A DNA stretch of 64,000 bases from positions 186,001 to 250,000 of the forward strand of contig CAIUHP010000043.1 of the NCBI GenBank assembly GCA_903899015.1, written 5' to 3'. Below the pieces are notes generated by a model, which searched no databases, was not told the DNA's origin, and saw nothing but the letters and a program-made list of their open reading frames with translations. This DNA is from an uncultured Armatimonadota bacterium. Its GTDB lineage: Bacteria > Armatimonadota > Fimbriimonadia > Fimbriimonadales > Fimbriimonadaceae. The position numbers were made by a program, and so were the translations under genes. Each line of letters starts with the position of its first letter. The first letter of the stretch is position 1. Positions 49,267 through 57,745 of the stretch are shown piece after piece.

Positions 49267-49872
49267 TCACCAGCTCACAAGATCAGACAAGCGAACTTCC
49301 TTTACTGCCAGCTCCCACACTTCCTCACCCTTGAAGGCCACTGATGCAACCCATGGGTCCGGAAGTTCTGGTCGCTGAACGGTCCATATTTCTCCTGTAC
49401 CAACAACCTCAAAAACGGATGCGTCAACTTGATTCAAACCTTCAAGTGCAAGTGCCAACCCTCGCCCGGTACCCTTTGCGACGGCTTCACGCACCGTCCA
49501 GTCGATGAACTCTTGTTCGGACATTTCAAGCTGAGTGAGTCGCAATCGCGACTCGATATCAAGCCCGACGTCACCGTCCTGAGATAACGCAATAGCAGCC
49601 ACACCCAGGGTGCTGGAACAGCTGAAACTGGGACCGTCCTCCACATAAGGCTTGCCCGCCCGGCCTTCAAGGATGGTTGGAAAGTCTCGTTTCGCTGCAG
49701 ATTTCAGACTCCAAAGCCGTAATGCCCGGCTTGCAAGGGCTCGCACACGGCGATCCGAATCTCGAAACTGGGAGGCATACGCGCGATCAACCGGCGAAAC
49801 TAATGAGATCAGTTCTTTCTCCTGAAGACCTTCCGTCCCCAACCAGAAAAGATTGACTTGATCAACCAGCAA
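49267..49872 (-). CDS. 4'-phosphopantetheinyl transferase superfamily (Sfp-like)
   Basis: SRALRLWSL..., GKPYVEDGPSFSCSSTLGVAAIAL, DVGLDIESRLRL, FIDWTVREAVAKGTGRGL. Carrier-protein gene is two upstream in the same operon. Confidence 0.83.
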   Translation of the reverse strand: MLVDQVNLFWLGTEGLQEKELISLVSPVDRAYASQFRDSDRRVRALASRALRLWSLKSAAKRDFPTILEGRAGKPYVEDGPSFSCSSTLGVAAIALSQDGDVGLDIESRLRLTQLEMSEQEFIDWTVREAVAKGTGRGLALALEGLNQVDASVFEVVGTGEIWTVQRPELPDPWVASVAFKGEEVWELAVKEVRLSDLVSW

Positions 49873-50908
49873 AGCTTCTCCGCTCCGAGCCTGAAATCAA
49901 GCTGACAAGCCATTCAACCGGCCCACGTTTGAATCGCCTCAGCCAAAATTCTGAAAAGCAGACCGCGAAGACTAGGTAGCCCGCCAATGTTAGAACTCCT
50001 ATTCGTGTGGGCCATTCTTCGGCGGGATACCAGTGCCTCAGGGGCAACACAACCAACAGGATGTGACCTACATAGTGACTCAGCGATGTTCGCCCGATCG
50101 CGGCGTGCCAAGAAGCCAATTTGAATTTCTGGAACTTCCCTTCCCATGCCTCCAACCCAAATACAACCGCGAAGGCGACACCTCCACAAATGAAAAGGAA
50201 AGGAATTGAAGTTGGCACCCATTCAATCGCAAACACAGAGGACGCGGCAGGGTGCAACCACAACACCAGAAGCCCGGTCGCCAAGGCCAAGCTTGCAGAA
50301 ACAACCAGTCCTATCGTCTTCTTTAGCTTCAGATCGACTGCCAAAATTCCCAACAGGATGAAAACAAGCCACGGCATCAAGGGATAACAACCGTCCACAA
50401 AGATCAATTTCAAAGCAGAGGAGGCGGACAAAATGGGTTCTCCACTATCGTTCCAATCGTGCGCCATCCAAGCATGCCCAACGGGACTCAAAACGGGAAT
50501 CAATAGGATGAGCGCTACTGCTACGCCACCGATCATCCATTTCCCTCCCGCCCGAATGAGGGCGGCCAGTGGCAAGGCACAACCAATCGCCATCAAAACT
50601 TCCGTTGGCCAAAGAGTCAAGTGGAGGATGACGCCTAGCAGTATTAAGGCAAAAGCACGTCGGACGATAAAGATGAAGTAGGAACGCTCGAATCGACTCT
50701 CACCCATCTGAATGGCAAGTGACATGCCCACAAGCACAAAGAAAAGTGACGCCGATTTGCCTGCGAACCACTCCGATACCATGGTCACAACCCTTCCAAG
50801 GCTAGTGGTCGCTCCCTCCGTTGGCACGAGATGCTCGATCATCATCCCCATCAGCGCAAAGCCCCGAGCAAAATCGATGGCGAGGCGACGGGGAGCAGAA
50901 ACGTTCAT
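49862..50908 (-). CDS. Polytopic membrane protein of the heparan-alpha-glucosaminide N-acetyltransferase/DUF1624-DUF418-like group
   Basis: RRLAIDFARGFALMGMMIEHLVP...FAGKSASLFFVLVGMSLAIQM, about 9-10 predicted TM helices, HYVGHILLV. Confidence 0.78.
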   Translation of the reverse strand: MNVSAPRRLAIDFARGFALMGMMIEHLVPTEGATTSLGRVVTMVSEWFAGKSASLFFVLVGMSLAIQMGESRFERSYFIFIVRRAFALILLGVILHLTLWPTEVLMAIGCALPLAALIRAGGKWMIGGVAVALILLIPVLSPVGHAWMAHDWNDSGEPILSASSALKLIFVDGCYPLMPWLVFILLGILAVDLKLKKTIGLVVSASLALATGLLVLWLHPAASSVFAIEWVPTSIPFLFICGGVAFAVVFGLEAWEGKFQKFKLASWHAAIGRTSLSHYVGHILLVVLPLRHWYPAEEWPTRIGVLTLAGYLVFAVCFSEFWLRRFKRGPVEWLVSLISGSERRSFAG

Positions 50909-53900
50909 GGCTCAATCGTTTCGATTTGGCGGGAAGGGGCCCCTTGGTAGCGGCGCCCTGGAAGTAAGTGCTCATGCTTCATGATCACGCTATTCGGCTC
51001 GACCCTTGTATGCTCGCCCACTACTGCCCCGTAGAGAGGAACTGTTGCTCGTCCCAGCGTGGCTCCTTTTTTAACCACGACATGACCAATTTTGAGCACA
51101 CGATCTTCGAAAGTGTGAGCCTGATAGTTGGCGGAAACCGTCGCGTCGTCTTCGATAATGATCATGTCCGGGTCGACTACCTGCGAAAACCCATCAGAAA
51201 GAACGACTCGCTTCCCGATCTTCATTCCCATTGCACGCAGGTAGGGAATGAGAAGGAGTGAGCCTTCTAACGAGTGCAGAATGGGTTCCGCCCATTCCCC
51301 CCACGCCACATATAAGAAGTCCCATCTACTGCACCAACACGACCAGAGGGGATGGATACCCTCCTTCACTTTCCCGAGCAAAGCCCATTTCAGACCCAGA
51401 ACTAAACCACACAAGAATGCCGCGGTCGCAGCCCCGCTAAGGGTTGCACCCAAGACAAACGTGAGCGGCGAACGCATCCACGGAGAGAAATCTGAAAGGA
51501 AGTCCCACCAAAGATAGAAAGAGAACAAAGGGATGGCTGGAACGGTAAACCGCAACGATTCCCAAAATATTCGATTCCAAAACCGAATTGGTGTCGGTTT
51601 AAACGTAAGGTCTTCGTCAACTGGAACGATCTCACGTTTCAGTAATTCGATCGGCGGCAAACCAAACCAAGCAGTGCTTTTGGCCATCACGCAATCATCG
51701 GCAACCGTGCATACCCCTAACAGAATATTTGGCGGAAGCGATTGCCCACCAGGAATAACCGCATGGTTCCCAACAAAGCTGTACGACGAGACCGAAACGG
51801 GTCGAAGTGTACAACGACCCTCCTGAATCGAAGGTGAACCCAAGTACACGCCGTCGGCAAAGAACACATGGCTGTCGATAGAAATAAGCTCCGGCACGAC
51901 GTCAATGATTGTGCTGATTTCGCAATCCCTTCCAATCGACATCCCCGCCATTCGAAGCCACACGGGCCAAAACAGAGTCCCGCTCAACCATCGCCCCGAT
52001 GCTTCTACCATCATAGATTTCAAGGAAACTCGCGCAAATGCCGGTGACCTCAAGGGGATCGTTCCCGGCTCAACTTTGCCCAATAACCGACACGCCATGG
52101 CTTCTAAAACGACCATTACCGGAACGCAAGCAAGAGAGATCGCCAAACAAACTCCGAGCCAAAGGGGAAGGCTCGAAAAGGCAGAAGAACTCGATTGGAC
52201 AAGGCGATAGGTCACGATAAAAGCAACCTGGAACGGTAGCATCTGAACGAAATGCACGATCGAGCGTGCACACGTTAACAGAAAGGCAAACCTAATCGGG
52301 GTCATCTCTGACTGCTCCGTTTTTCTCGGCTGAGGAGTCGCACCTGCGGGCCGCGCTGGAATACCATTCCACTTTTCCCCTTTTGGAATGATTGCCCCGG
52401 GTTCAAGCGAAGACAATGGAGTCAGCATCGAACCTTCTCCCATTTGGGAGCCTGGCCCCACCATCGCACGTGTCTCCACAACCGAGTTGGCACCGATCTG
52501 CACACTCCCAAGTACAACTTGGCCGGCTTCTAAGTCCCACACATTGAGCACTGCGTCCTGACATACCGCTACATTGTCTCCAATATCTAATAGATCCCAG
52601 CCCCCAAACAATGGAATCGAGCCTTGGTGGAAATAGACGTTCTTTCCAATCTTTGCTCCTAGGGCGCGAAGAGCCATATTAGCGAACTCAGTCCCTTCAA
52701 GGTTCCTCCAAGGAATTAGCCTAACAAACAGACGAACGATCCAATTGCGAACGAAAAAACTTCCCCAAACAGGTTCTTTTCCAGTTTTGTAAGTTCCAAT
52801 CAGTAGTTGCTTAACAAGCACCGCCAATCCAATCGTCACGGGAGTCAAGAAGGCAATTCCAAATAATCCGATGAGGGGCCAAACGATCAGTAGCATCGTC
52901 CAATCTCCCAACTGATCGAACCAAGGGACGCCTTTCAACATAAACCAGGCTCCCGCAGTGGAACCAAAAACCAGTTCCATGAAAAGAACTAAGGCTTGAA
53001 TGCAAGTGGCCAGGATTGGATTGCCCTTTACCGTCGGTTCCGATGAAGTTAGCGGTGTAACAGCAGCTGAAGACTTCGTCCGCTGCGCAATTCCTTCGAT
53101 CGTCCGACCTTCGTAAATATCTCGAACGGTTATGGATGACGTCTCGGAATCTGTCCGTAGTAGAGTGACGATCCTCGATGCCAGCAACGAGCTTCCGCCT
53201 AGATCCGAAAAGAAGTCGTCCTTGATCGATAAAGGCTCGGTTAATCCAAAGATCTTCTGACATGCCAGAACGACACGCTTTTCAAGATCCGATTCAGGTG
53301 GGACAAATGCGGCCGAGTGATGCTCAAAATGAGGTGCGACAAACTCGAGAGCATCTCGGCGCAACTTGCCACCCACGCTTTTGGGAAGCACATCGCAAAC
53401 CGTATAGGCGTCCGGAACCATGTATCTCGGAAGCCGTTCTCCTATAAACTCCCTGAGCTCTTCAAAATCAATCTCCTGCGCCGGGTTTTCCAAGACCAAA
53501 TGTGCTGACAACCACTCTCGGTCGTCCTGTTTTTGTAATCGACAAGCAGTCTCCCGAACACCCTTAAACTGAGCAATGATTGCCTCGATTGCCTCAAGTT
53601 CAATTCGGTAACCCCGCAACTTAATTTGAGCGTCGATCCGACCGAAATAGCTTAGATTTCCGCTCGGCTCAAGTCGAACTAAGTCCCCCGTCCGATAGAT
53701 TCGCCCGAATTCTGGATGCTCAACAAACTTCTTCTGAGTCACCTCGGAAAGATTTCGATATCCTCGCGCTAAGCCAATGCCAGCAAGGTAAAGCTCACCC
53801 ATTTCTCCTGGCAAAGCTTCCCTGCCATCCTCTGCGGCTACATAGGCGGTGATTCCGTCAACCGGCTTACCAATCGTGATTTCGCCGTTTTCGACAATAT

Positions 53901-54870
53901 CGGTCCGAACGCATGTAACCGTACATTCAGTCGGGCCATAACCGTTTACGAGTCGACGACCCGGTGCCCATGCGTTTGCCACATCCTCCGTTAACGCTTC
54001 CCCTCCGACATACAAAAGCTTGAGATTTGGAAGCGCCTCGCGCGGATTAGAACACGCCATGGTCCTCAGCAAAGTTGGCGGAGGGCACAGCACGGTGATC
54101 CGCTCATTTTGTAGCCATGCCACTAGGTCTGGCCCCAGACGAGCCGTGTCATCGTCCATGACAACCAACGTGGCCCCGGCGGCAAAAGCAAGCCAAGTTT
54201 CTTCGACCGAAGAGTCGTAACTAGCCGAGGAACCTTGTGCGATTCGATCCTGGGCCCCCAACTGAAATTCGCGCAAGTCGGAACGCACCAAGTTTGAGAT
54301 GCTTCGTTCCTCGATCATGACCCCCTTGGGCAGCCCACTGGTACCCGAAGTATAAATCAGGTAGGCGAGGCGATCTTGGCGAAGATTCTCATCGGCTTGG
54401 AAGTCTTCGGTCGGGTGAATGTCATCGCTTGAAAGGACCATCTGATGGTGGTCCGCCAGAGAAACAAGCCGAGGAATATATTCGGGATCAGAAACAATTG
54501 CGATAGGAGTCGCATCCAACAAAATCCGCCGGATGACTTCATCAGGCAAAGCTGGTTCGATACAAACATAGGCAAATCCCGCCCGAAGCGCTCCTAACTG
54601 AGCAGCCCACAAATGCTCCGATGCTCGCGGTACGAGAATTGCAATAATCTGTTCGCCAACTCCAAGCTCAGTAAATCGCGATGCATAGCCGGAAGCAAGA
54701 TAATCAAGCTCCTCGTAAGTAACCGTGTCGCGGTATGCCCTACCAATCCCTGGCGGAATATCTAGAGCGATCTGATGAGGATTTCTTTTTGCATTAAGCG
54801 CAAAGAGGGATGGCAGATCATGCCATTCAGCTCCAACGAACCCTAATTGCCCCTCATTGGCTTCCAGCAT
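50905..54870 (-). CDS. Pls/PosA-type non-ribosomal peptide synthetase (A-T plus TM segments plus three left-handed beta-helix domains)
   Basis: A domain LIYTSGTSGLPKGVMIEE, NGYGPTECTV, YRTGDLVR, LPKSVGGKLRRDAL; carrier FFSDLGGSSLLASRI; then hydrophobic segments and three hexapeptide-repeat blocks (GAKIGKNVYFHQGS..., GMSIGRDCEIST..., GMKIGKRVVLSDG...). 1321 aa. Confidence 0.93.
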   Translation of the reverse strand: MLEANEGQLGFVGAEWHDLPSLFALNAKRNPHQIALDIPPGIGRAYRDTVTYEELDYLASGYASRFTELGVGEQIIAILVPRASEHLWAAQLGALRAGFAYVCIEPALPDEVIRRILLDATPIAIVSDPEYIPRLVSLADHHQMVLSSDDIHPTEDFQADENLRQDRLAYLIYTSGTSGLPKGVMIEERSISNLVRSDLREFQLGAQDRIAQGSSASYDSSVEETWLAFAAGATLVVMDDDTARLGPDLVAWLQNERITVLCPPPTLLRTMACSNPREALPNLKLLYVGGEALTEDVANAWAPGRRLVNGYGPTECTVTCVRTDIVENGEITIGKPVDGITAYVAAEDGREALPGEMGELYLAGIGLARGYRNLSEVTQKKFVEHPEFGRIYRTGDLVRLEPSGNLSYFGRIDAQIKLRGYRIELEAIEAIIAQFKGVRETACRLQKQDDREWLSAHLVLENPAQEIDFEELREFIGERLPRYMVPDAYTVCDVLPKSVGGKLRRDALEFVAPHFEHHSAAFVPPESDLEKRVVLACQKIFGLTEPLSIKDDFFSDLGGSSLLASRIVTLLRTDSETSSITVRDIYEGRTIEGIAQRTKSSAAVTPLTSSEPTVKGNPILATCIQALVLFMELVFGSTAGAWFMLKGVPWFDQLGDWTMLLIVWPLIGLFGIAFLTPVTIGLAVLVKQLLIGTYKTGKEPVWGSFFVRNWIVRLFVRLIPWRNLEGTEFANMALRALGAKIGKNVYFHQGSIPLFGGWDLLDIGDNVAVCQDAVLNVWDLEAGQVVLGSVQIGANSVVETRAMVGPGSQMGEGSMLTPLSSLEPGAIIPKGEKWNGIPARPAGATPQPRKTEQSEMTPIRFAFLLTCARSIVHFVQMLPFQVAFIVTYRLVQSSSSAFSSLPLWLGVCLAISLACVPVMVVLEAMACRLLGKVEPGTIPLRSPAFARVSLKSMMVEASGRWLSGTLFWPVWLRMAGMSIGRDCEISTIIDVVPELISIDSHVFFADGVYLGSPSIQEGRCTLRPVSVSSYSFVGNHAVIPGGQSLPPNILLGVCTVADDCVMAKSTAWFGLPPIELLKREIVPVDEDLTFKPTPIRFWNRIFWESLRFTVPAIPLFSFYLWWDFLSDFSPWMRSPLTFVLGATLSGAATAAFLCGLVLGLKWALLGKVKEGIHPLWSCWCSRWDFLYVAWGEWAEPILHSLEGSLLLIPYLRAMGMKIGKRVVLSDGFSQVVDPDMIIIEDDATVSANYQAHTFEDRVLKIGHVVVKKGATLGRATVPLYGAVVGEHTRVEPNSVIMKHEHLLPGRRYQGAPSRQIETIEP

Positions 54871-54872
54871 TT

Positions 54873-55355
54873 TTAAGCCAATTCCGCTTGCGCGGTTTCC
54901 ATCTCCCTTAATAGGTAATCGGAAACGTTAGCACGTAGCTGTTCGCGAACCGAAGGGTCTAAATGTTTGAACCCACGGATTAATTTGCGACATTCAGGAC
55001 TGCCGCAAAGACAATGAAACGGTTCGGCCATGTCCCATTCACTTGTTTCATAGTCAAACGTGATTTCATCACCCGAATGGATCGTTCGGGTCGCCACTAG
55101 CTCGCGTCCACGAATGCGAGCATTGGGTGAGCAACTATGATTCGTGTAGATCCATGGCGTAAGTGCAACACCATTCGCATCGACGCCAATGGAGTGTGGA
55201 ACGAGATGCGTGTTGTGGTCTAGCTGAATCGAAAAGCGGGATGCCGTATCAATTACGTCGCCTGCAAGGTAGCAAATAGACTCGCCTGCTGTCACATCTC
55301 GATTGATGGACACAAAGTGCCCTCCCGTTCTTGTCCCCACACTCAATCTATGCAT
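54873..55355 (-). CDS. SET-domain protein-lysine methyltransferase-like protein with post-SET cysteine motif
   Basis: YTNHSCSPNARIRG, GDEITFDYETSEWDM, post-SET CLCGSPECRKLIRGFKHL. Stop lies 2 nt before the NRPS start. Confidence 0.9.
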   Translation of the reverse strand: MHRLSVGTRTGGHFVSINRDVTAGESICYLAGDVIDTASRFSIQLDHNTHLVPHSIGVDANGVALTPWIYTNHSCSPNARIRGRELVATRTIHSGDEITFDYETSEWDMAEPFHCLCGSPECRKLIRGFKHLDPSVREQLRANVSDYLLREMETAQAELA

Positions 55356-55640: not shown

Positions 55641-56450
55641 ATGAAGCGAAGATCGTGGGTTCATGCTTGGGGAATTGGCGGAGCGGCTTGCTGCTTTTTC
55701 ATGGGAAGCGCTTTCGCGACGCAGCGGTCGATGCTCGCGAAAGATCCGTTAAACGCAGGCCTCATTCATCGATGGCAATTCGACGGCAACTGCTTCGACT
55801 CCGTTGGCAATCTCAGCACCAAACCAGTCGGGCCAGTCGGATACACCGAGGTCGGCTCGGGGAAAGGCATAGTTTTCGACGGTTCGACAACTGGAATGGT
55901 CCTTCCGCCCGAAAAGGATATGCAGTTCCAGGCTTCGTTTTCGATCAGTGTTTGGGCAAATCTATTCGCGCGACCTTCAGCCTCTCATATGTGGTCCGCG
56001 ATAATTTTTGATGGCGATGATCGCCCCGGTTTGGATCCTTATGCATTGCAAGCGGACCCTAACGGAAAGATCCAGTTCCTTATCACCGGAGCAGGTGGAG
56101 CGTCAACGCTCGATGCACCGATACCACTTAACACCTTTGTTTACCTAACGGCTACTTACAATAAGCAAACGGGCATCCAGAGTTTTTACGAGAATGGCAA
56201 GTTGGTCAACCAGGCCACAGGTGTCCCAAATCTAACTCCCGTAGTAGGGCTAGATGGAAATCAGAATCCTGGTATCGGAATCGGAACGAACAATGCCTTC
56301 CCGAAGAGCAGTTACCATTTTGGCTGGAATGGGATCCTTAGCGATCTTAGGATCTATAACCGAGCCCTAACACCTGCCGAGGCCCTGGAATTATTCCATC
56401 GCGGAGTCACTCGTCCGCTCGGCACAAAAATCAACCCGATCAACCCTTAA
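55641..56450 (+). CDS. LamG/concanavalin-A-like secreted protein
   Basis: NAGLIHRWQFDGNCFDSVGN...QFQASFSISVWANL...GWNGILSDLRIYNRALTPAEALEL. ATG at 55641 preferred over the GTG at 55632. Confidence 0.87.
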   Translation: MKRRSWVHAWGIGGAACCFFMGSAFATQRSMLAKDPLNAGLIHRWQFDGNCFDSVGNLSTKPVGPVGYTEVGSGKGIVFDGSTTGMVLPPEKDMQFQASFSISVWANLFARPSASHMWSAIIFDGDDRPGLDPYALQADPNGKIQFLITGAGGASTLDAPIPLNTFVYLTATYNKQTGIQSFYENGKLVNQATGVPNLTPVVGLDGNQNPGIGIGTNNAFPKSSYHFGWNGILSDLRIYNRALTPAEALELFHRGVTRPLGTKINPINP

Positions 56451-57745
56451 CCAATTCCCCGCGTCCCCGCAACGATCATCGCGTCAGCGAAGCGATCAAC
56501 TTCCGCGGGAGTCGTGTAGATCTGAGGAGTCACTCGAATCCCATTGAACTGAACATGTTCAATGGGAGCCGTGACGATCTGATAATTCTTTTCAAGCCAA
56601 CTTGCGAGTTCGCCCGGCTTGGTGCCCACCACTTCCACCGTGCAAATGGCACAAGAATGGTCTGCATCCAGATTCGTATGAAATCGAATATTCGGAACAT
56701 CAACCAGCTTTTCGGTCCAACGTGATCGCAAATACCGTAACCGCGCCGTCTTTCTCTCCGTTCCGATCATCTCATGAAATGTCAGCGCCTCAGCGATCGC
56801 GTTGTGTACCGCCGCTTGATGGGTTCCGATTTCCTCAAATTTCCGAATGTCGTTTGTCTGGGTAAGCGCAGGGGCCATGAGTGCCCAGAGGTCCGCGACC
56901 TTCTTCCGATTTACATACAGGAGCCCGGTTCCAATCGGCGCCATCAACCACTTGTGAAGGGACGTAGCGAAGTAATCGCACCCCAAATCTTTCTGCTGAA
57001 ATGGAAACTGGGCAAATGCGTGAGCTCCGTCTACAACGACCGGAATTCCGTGTTTACGTCCCAGATCACAAATCTCCCGAACCGGAAAAATCTGCCCGTT
57101 CATAAATCCGACGTGGGACACCAAAATGATCTTGGTTCGAGACGTAATTCCTCTCTCAAAAGCATTAATGAGTTCGGCATGACTTTTGGGCACTGCTGGA
57201 ATCTCAACCTGGACCATCTTGATCCCTTCCCTTTTCTCACGTTGCTGAATCGCAAAGATCATCCGTGGATAGTCCAAAGTGGTTGTCAGAATCTCGTCTC
57301 CCGACTCCATTGGGAGTCCAAACAGACAAGTCATCAGCGATTCACTTGCGTTTCGGGTAATCGCGATTTCCTCTGAATCTGCACCAAAAAACGCTGCGAG
57401 TCGTTTGCGCACCCCTTCGATTTCAGGGTCAAGATCGCGCCACATAAAGATGCTCGGTCCCTGATTGGCTACATCAATCTGTCTTTTAAGCGACTCGCAT
57501 ACAACCCTCGGTGATGGCGAACATCCTCCGTTGTTGAAGTTGATGGTGGTTGGATGGAGCGTAAACGCATTTCGAATGCCTTGCCAAAAATCCTCGTCAC
57601 TGCTGTTCAATTCCGGGGCAGAAGTGGCATTCGAAATCAGTTTCTCAACTTCGTCCAAACTGGAATCCCTAAATGAAGCGGGAGTGCTAGAGTAAGAAGC
57701 GACATCGTTTGGAAATTCCATCAAGGATGGAGACGGTTTACGCAA
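56447..57745 (-). CDS. Class-V PLP-dependent aminotransferase (isopenicillin-N-epimerase-like)
   Basis: INFNNGGCSPSPRVV...ITRNASESLMTCLFGLPM...PVVVDGAHAFAQFPFQQKDLGCDYFATSLHKWLMAPIGTGLLYV. Confidence 0.92.
   Translation of the reverse strand: MRKPSPSLMEFPNDVASYSSTPASFRDSSLDEVEKLISNATSAPELNSSDEDFWQGIRNAFTLHPTTINFNNGGCSPSPRVVCESLKRQIDVANQGPSIFMWRDLDPEIEGVRKRLAAFFGADSEEIAITRNASESLMTCLFGLPMESGDEILTTTLDYPRMIFAIQQREKREGIKMVQVEIPAVPKSHAELINAFERGITSRTKIILVSHVGFMNGQIFPVREICDLGRKHGIPVVVDGAHAFAQFPFQQKDLGCDYFATSLHKWLMAPIGTGLLYVNRKKVADLWALMAPALTQTNDIRKFEEIGTHQAAVHNAIAEALTFHEMIGTERKTARLRYLRSRWTEKLVDVPNIRFHTNLDADHSCAICTVEVVGTKPGELASWLEKNYQIVTAPIEHVQFNGIRVTPQIYTTPAEVDRFADAMIVAGTRGIG

Follow-up and report, generated by a model that had tools for sequence, protein, structure and literature searches.

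The window, by which we mean the whole stretch of 64,000 nucleotides analysed here, carries a minus-strand operon of four genes: a SET methyltransferase, a synthetase of the NRPS type, a membrane protein and a phosphopantetheinyl transferase (PPTase). A sequence-only reading of this DNA had described the four as tightly coupled, and a check of the open reading frames agreed with it at every boundary: the SET and NRPS genes are separated by 2 nt, the NRPS and membrane protein genes overlap by 4 nt, and the membrane protein and PPTase genes overlap by 11 nt. The SET gene (54873-55355) encodes 160 residues (Pfam SET, 1.7e-8), among them the SET-fold tyrosine, Tyr102 (codon 55050-55052), and the post-SET cysteines. 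The second gene (50905-54870) encodes a Pls-like synthetase of 1321 aa. Its adenylation domain (residues 26-512, 53335-54795; Pfam AMP-binding and AMP-binding_C) is followed by a carrier, or thiolation, domain (53071-53283; PP-binding, 1.9e-5) with the motif LGGSSLL, in which the carrier serine is at about Ser561 (codon about 53188-53190); the corresponding LG.xSL motif is present in relatives. The membrane-anchored terminal region (residues 638-1312, 50935-52959) matches TIGR02353 and contains hexapeptide-like repeats and, as judged by hydropathy, transmembrane segments; in Pfam it gives only a weak hexapeptide match.

The third gene (49862-50908; 348 aa) encodes a polytopic membrane acyltransferase of the DUF418/HGSNAT type. 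As in other HGSNAT/DUF418 transmembrane acyltransferases, both Pfam models score above cutoff (DUF418, 5e-13; HGSNAT_cat, 2e-10) and the histidines are conserved, here in EHLVP and GR.SL(S/T)HY..H motifs; the difference is that proteins of the window type adjoin, or are fused to, a synthetase. The last gene (49267-49872; 201 aa, TTG start), with motifs GLDIE and WTVREAVAKGTG, has no Pfam match as a single sequence, but a profile built from it and its relatives matches Sfp (5e-21) and displays the GxDIE and WxxxEAxxKxxGxG motifs, in agreement with its initial identification as an Sfp-type PPTase. A promoter and terminator scan at the operon returned no signal clearly exceeding chance. Upstream of the operon are a LamG gene and a PLP enzyme gene (56447-57745) whose top similarity is to PvdN-type pyoverdine-tailoring proteins; both were considered as pathway members and rejected, since neither adjoins the synthetase in a relative from the same genus.

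The synthetase shares with epsilon-poly-L-lysine synthetase (Pls) and the delta-poly-L-ornithine synthetase PosA the order of adenylation, thiolation and terminal regions, the latter with transmembrane segments and matching the whole of the TIGR02353 profile (positions 15-694 of 695). To this extent the Pls-type architecture proposed from the sequence holds; membership in Pls/PosA itself does not, as the match of 368.6 bits falls short of the NCBIfam cutoff of 423.1. Four clade members that we scored (those of the window, L011, L012 and Streptomyces) lie between 357.6 and 388.2 bits, whereas SET-less relatives score 537-632, so that the cutoff divides the tested synthetases just as the tree does: in a quick tree with 17 other Pls sequences, the window-type synthetases form one separate clade (SH-aLRT 100). 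Given these sub-cutoff scores, we regard the clade as a sister subfamily of Pls/PosA. It is further distinguished by its coupling to SET and, in some members, by fusion to DUF418, whereas PosA of Acinetobacter has been described as a single-gene operon. A fold model of the terminal region was too poor to use (pLDDT 38) and was set aside.

The adenylation pocket sets the clade apart more precisely. Its ten-residue code is DSEC[LIV]VGVTK, formed in the window by D219, S220, E223, C262, L286, V288, G310, V318, T319 and K502, with D, S, E and C at positions 1-4 and G, V, T and K at positions 7-10 in all 28 aligned members; in one additional member of the clade, G211, whose sequence is partial, position 4 is S. 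The Asp and Glu at positions 1 and 3 are those of Pls/PosA, and in PosA they bind the two amines of ornithine (PMC10522769). Position 7 is Gly in 28 of 28 clade members (G310 in the window, codon 53941-53943) and Thr or Ser in 17 of 17 other Pls; only five positions in the entire protein discriminate the two groups so cleanly, and this is the sole one in the pocket. In PosA it is occupied by Thr304, which hydrogen bonds the side-chain amine and whose replacement by Ala costs 33-fold (PMC10522769). The pocket thus retains the Asp and Glu that bind diamino acids in PosA, which favours the diamino-acid substrate inferred in the sequence-only reading, but differs where PosA contacts the side-chain amine. 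A natural inference, although not a proof, is that Gly at this position may accommodate a larger, methylated or less hydrogen-bonding cationic group. A search of papers for the exact code strings gave no match. A different Pls-like synthetase, in G467 (L087:814-6231), has the code DAESLLTVIK and a PPTase fused at its C-terminus.

The initial reading described the SET gene as physically coupled to a Pls-type synthetase gene, suggested searching related genomes for co-occurrence of SET with TIGR02353-type NRPSs, and took a lack of co-occurrence as refuting its proposal. The proposal survived this test, and two genome samples support a coupling that is evolutionary as well as physical. Among 291 genomes of the window's phylum, the synthetase clade is present in 15 and the SET (profile A2, E<=1e-5) in 11, all of which are among the 15; the SET gene is directly upstream of the synthetase in nine genomes and on another contig in two (G072 and G074). 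Among 397 genomes of a second class, that of L012, the synthetase clade occurs in 16, with SET directly upstream in 13; SET profile scores of at least 120 bits, a cut chosen post hoc inside a gap in the scores, are confined to these 13 linked genomes, the next score being 90 bits, and weaker SETs (<=90 bits) are present in other genomes. The corresponding hypergeometric values (5e-17 for the phylum and 7e-22 for the second class) are optimistic because the sampled genomes are related, yet the SET is clade-restricted and the adjacency recurs in 22 of the genomes sampled, so the arrangement is not due to chance.

The linkage also extends to distantly related bacteria. All four genes are present in identical order in G005, a genome of the same genus, and in both L011, a Phycisphaerales record, and L012, a further uncultured genome, a gap of 3 nt separates the SET gene from the synthetase gene downstream of it; on four near-identical Streptomyces plasmids, SET and synthetase are both present, ~14 kb apart and on opposite strands. 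In G598 (L078:64-1452) a tandem pair of SET genes lies directly upstream of the synthetase. Six analysed clade members have no adjacent SET gene: one has a SET on another contig, and for the remaining five there is no strong SET match in their own, often draft, genomes. All six keep the code unchanged, so adenylation may proceed without methylation.

The two proteins also appear to share a history. In the SET tree, the synthetase-linked SETs form a group that excludes 23 phage-like sequences and four further plasmid SETs, although the basal forks are unresolved, and the Streptomyces plasmid SET nests within the synthetase-linked group (support 100/95). SET and synthetase distances are correlated (Mantel r 0.76, 0 of 5000 permutations). 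Within the library searched, no paper links SET enzymes to polylysine synthetases. The pairing is real, widely conserved and apparently undescribed.

The other two genes are less constant. In the window's phylum a DUF418 gene accompanies the synthetase clade in seven genomes, in addition to two fusions; in these, from L012 and L072, DUF418 is joined to the synthetase C-terminus, in L012 as one frame of 1728 aa. No DUF418 gene was found near many other clade members, among them those of L011 and of the Streptomyces plasmids, and there the Pls-like terminal region is kept. PPTase genes often adjoin Pls/PosA as well, and outside the clade SET-less Pls genes frequently have a PPTase-like gene directly downstream. 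As DUF418 and PPTase are either patchy within the clade or also found beside other Pls, the conserved core of the operon is the SET gene and the Pls-like A-T-(TIGR02353) synthetase, and the system of four proposed at the outset reduces to this pair, with PPTase and membrane acyltransferase as optional, if frequent, helpers. On a Rhodococcus plasmid (L199:2917-8995), a Pls/PosA gene is followed by a BPL-N gene and, two genes downstream, by a gene for an HGSNAT-type acyltransferase, with no SET annotated.

By sequence and by predicted fold, the best solved relative of the window SET is BurB, from malleicyprol biosynthesis in Burkholderia thailandensis, rather than a histone enzyme. Its profile matches BurB at 69 bits, ahead of MLL1 at 52 bits, and its predicted structure (pLDDT 90) retrieves the three BurB chains as Foldseek ranks 1-3. 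Both are small bacterial SET proteins whose genes share a biosynthetic locus with that of an assembly enzyme that adenylates, and both have the SET-fold tyrosine and a nearby loop motif. They are about 27% identical, however, and some SAM-contact residues of BurB are not kept: Arg133 and His138 are replaced in the alignment by Glu and Leu. The product of BurB, moreover, enters a decarboxylation/DMSP route that leads to an NRPS-PKS, whereas the window SET is paired with a Pls-like synthetase. Eukaryotic SET lysine methyltransferases (MLL, SETD2, ASH1L) share the SET fold, the NHSC and DY motifs and the post-SET cysteines, but the match to them is weaker, and the window SET lacks chromatin-type flanking domains and belongs to a type strictly linked genetically to a synthetase. 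A general role on chromatin or ribosomes was rejected as the main reading because, within the phylum, the SET subfamily is confined to synthetase-bearing genomes. BurB methylates free methionine (PMC7496086, PMC12542666). Since the nearest solved relative thus acts on the sulfur of methionine, the premise of the sequence-only reading that SET enzymes methylate lysine is unsafe.

Related SET proteins occur in several other settings. Many phage-like contigs (L092-L160) encode small SET proteins in which these core motifs recur, so the fold type alone is no proof of a small-molecule substrate. On a Tabrizicola piscis plasmid (L163:1124-6128), a related SET gene is followed by genes for a GHMP kinase, a PLP enzyme, a DMT transporter and an alanine racemase, a run that looks like an amino-acid pathway. 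An Eleftheria terrae plasmid (L164:7851-12319) has, flanked by assembly-line genes, a BurB-like SET together with a TauD-type dioxygenase, an aminotransferase and an aldehyde dehydrogenase, an arrangement that recalls the bur set.

The order of the genes, their domains, their co-conservation and common history, the residues of the pocket and the relatives by fold are observed directly; from these we infer a substrate, a methylation site, polymerisation and a role for the membrane protein as follows. The PPTase would turn the carrier domain into the holo form, and the adenylation domain would activate an alpha-amino acid whose side chain is cationic and load it onto this carrier. The Pls-like terminal region, anchored in the membrane, would then link the units, yielding an isopeptide homopolymer or a short oligomer. 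The small-molecule partner that the SET enzyme would methylate is most likely the monomer, on its side-chain amine and ahead of adenylation, giving for example an N-methyl-lysine-like diamino acid, and less likely the finished oligomer. Where present, the DUF418/HGSNAT-type protein might acylate the product or move it across the membrane. We hold with roughly even confidence that the conserved module works in this general manner, with SET methylating the cationic monomer or oligomer of the Pls-like synthetase. The co-occurrence, the Streptomyces pairs, the correlated distances, the pocket with its Asp, Glu and Gly, the likeness to BurB, the DUF418 fusions and the HGSNAT neighbour in Rhodococcus all support it. 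Counting against it are the unchanged code of the clade members with no adjacent SET, the small SETs of phage-like contigs and the action of BurB on sulfur; in addition, a side-chain amine, if trimethylated, would block isopeptide growth through it. Lysine methylation and a polymeric product, as claimed for the operon, are plausible proposals.

The main chemical rival to lysine methylation is methionine S-methylation: the SET would be a BurB-like methionine S-methyltransferase, and permanently cationic S-methylmethionine would be activated by the Glu-containing pocket, either for an alpha-linked peptide or as a single loaded residue. BurB is the top PDB match by both sequence and fold, and its methylation of free methionine takes place next to an assembly line with an A domain that accepts a sulfonium (PMC7496086); a SET occurs within the bur-like gene set of Eleftheria, the Streptomyces SET gene adjoins a gene for a SulP anion transporter, and the clade pocket lacks the amine-bonding Thr yet has the Glu. 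On the other hand, BurB probably stands alone among SETs of its bacterial type in having a solved structure, which makes its top rank weak evidence on substrate, and neither its Arg133 nor its His138 is conserved in the window SET. BurA-A lacks the Asp kept by the clade A domains, and Pls-type terminal regions are known only to join diamino acids through side-chain amines. Overall we consider this route rather unlikely. It is improbable that the SET instead methylates the synthetase or another partner protein as a regulator, with an ordinary polycationic homopolymer as product. Most characterised SET enzymes do have protein substrates, and an enzyme and its substrate protein would also show strict linkage and correlated distances, but BurB uses a free amino acid, the window SET consists of the SET domain alone, with no further domain for recognising a substrate, and the clade-specific change at the amine-binding position of the pocket would be left unexplained. 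Most doubtful is a Dlt-like scheme in which one cationic amino acid is loaded and passed by the membrane acyltransferase to a lipid or surface glycan, for although two genomes encode DUF418-synthetase fusions, HGSNAT-type enzymes carry acyl groups to acceptors across membranes and the NCBIfam matches of the A domain include DltA, this last match reflects how alike A domains are in general, and many members (L011, the Streptomyces plasmids) retain the Pls-like terminal region with no DUF418 gene found nearby.

The linkage of SET and synthetase suggests an undescribed pathway to a methylated product with positive charge, either a polymer of amino acids or a short peptide. To our knowledge, very few homopolymers of cationic amino acids have been described, and BurB is the described example of natural-product biosynthesis that employs a SET enzyme. 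Tentatively, and with somewhat less than even confidence, we propose that the locus represents a new class of polycation in at least three bacterial groups, in which an N-methylated (or sulfonium) cationic amino acid made by SET would be polymerised at the membrane by a Pls-like synthetase with an altered pocket. The pair, together with its clade-specific pocket change, offers a directly testable path to a methylated polymer, and would give SET enzymes a second role in the small-molecule chemistry of bacteria.
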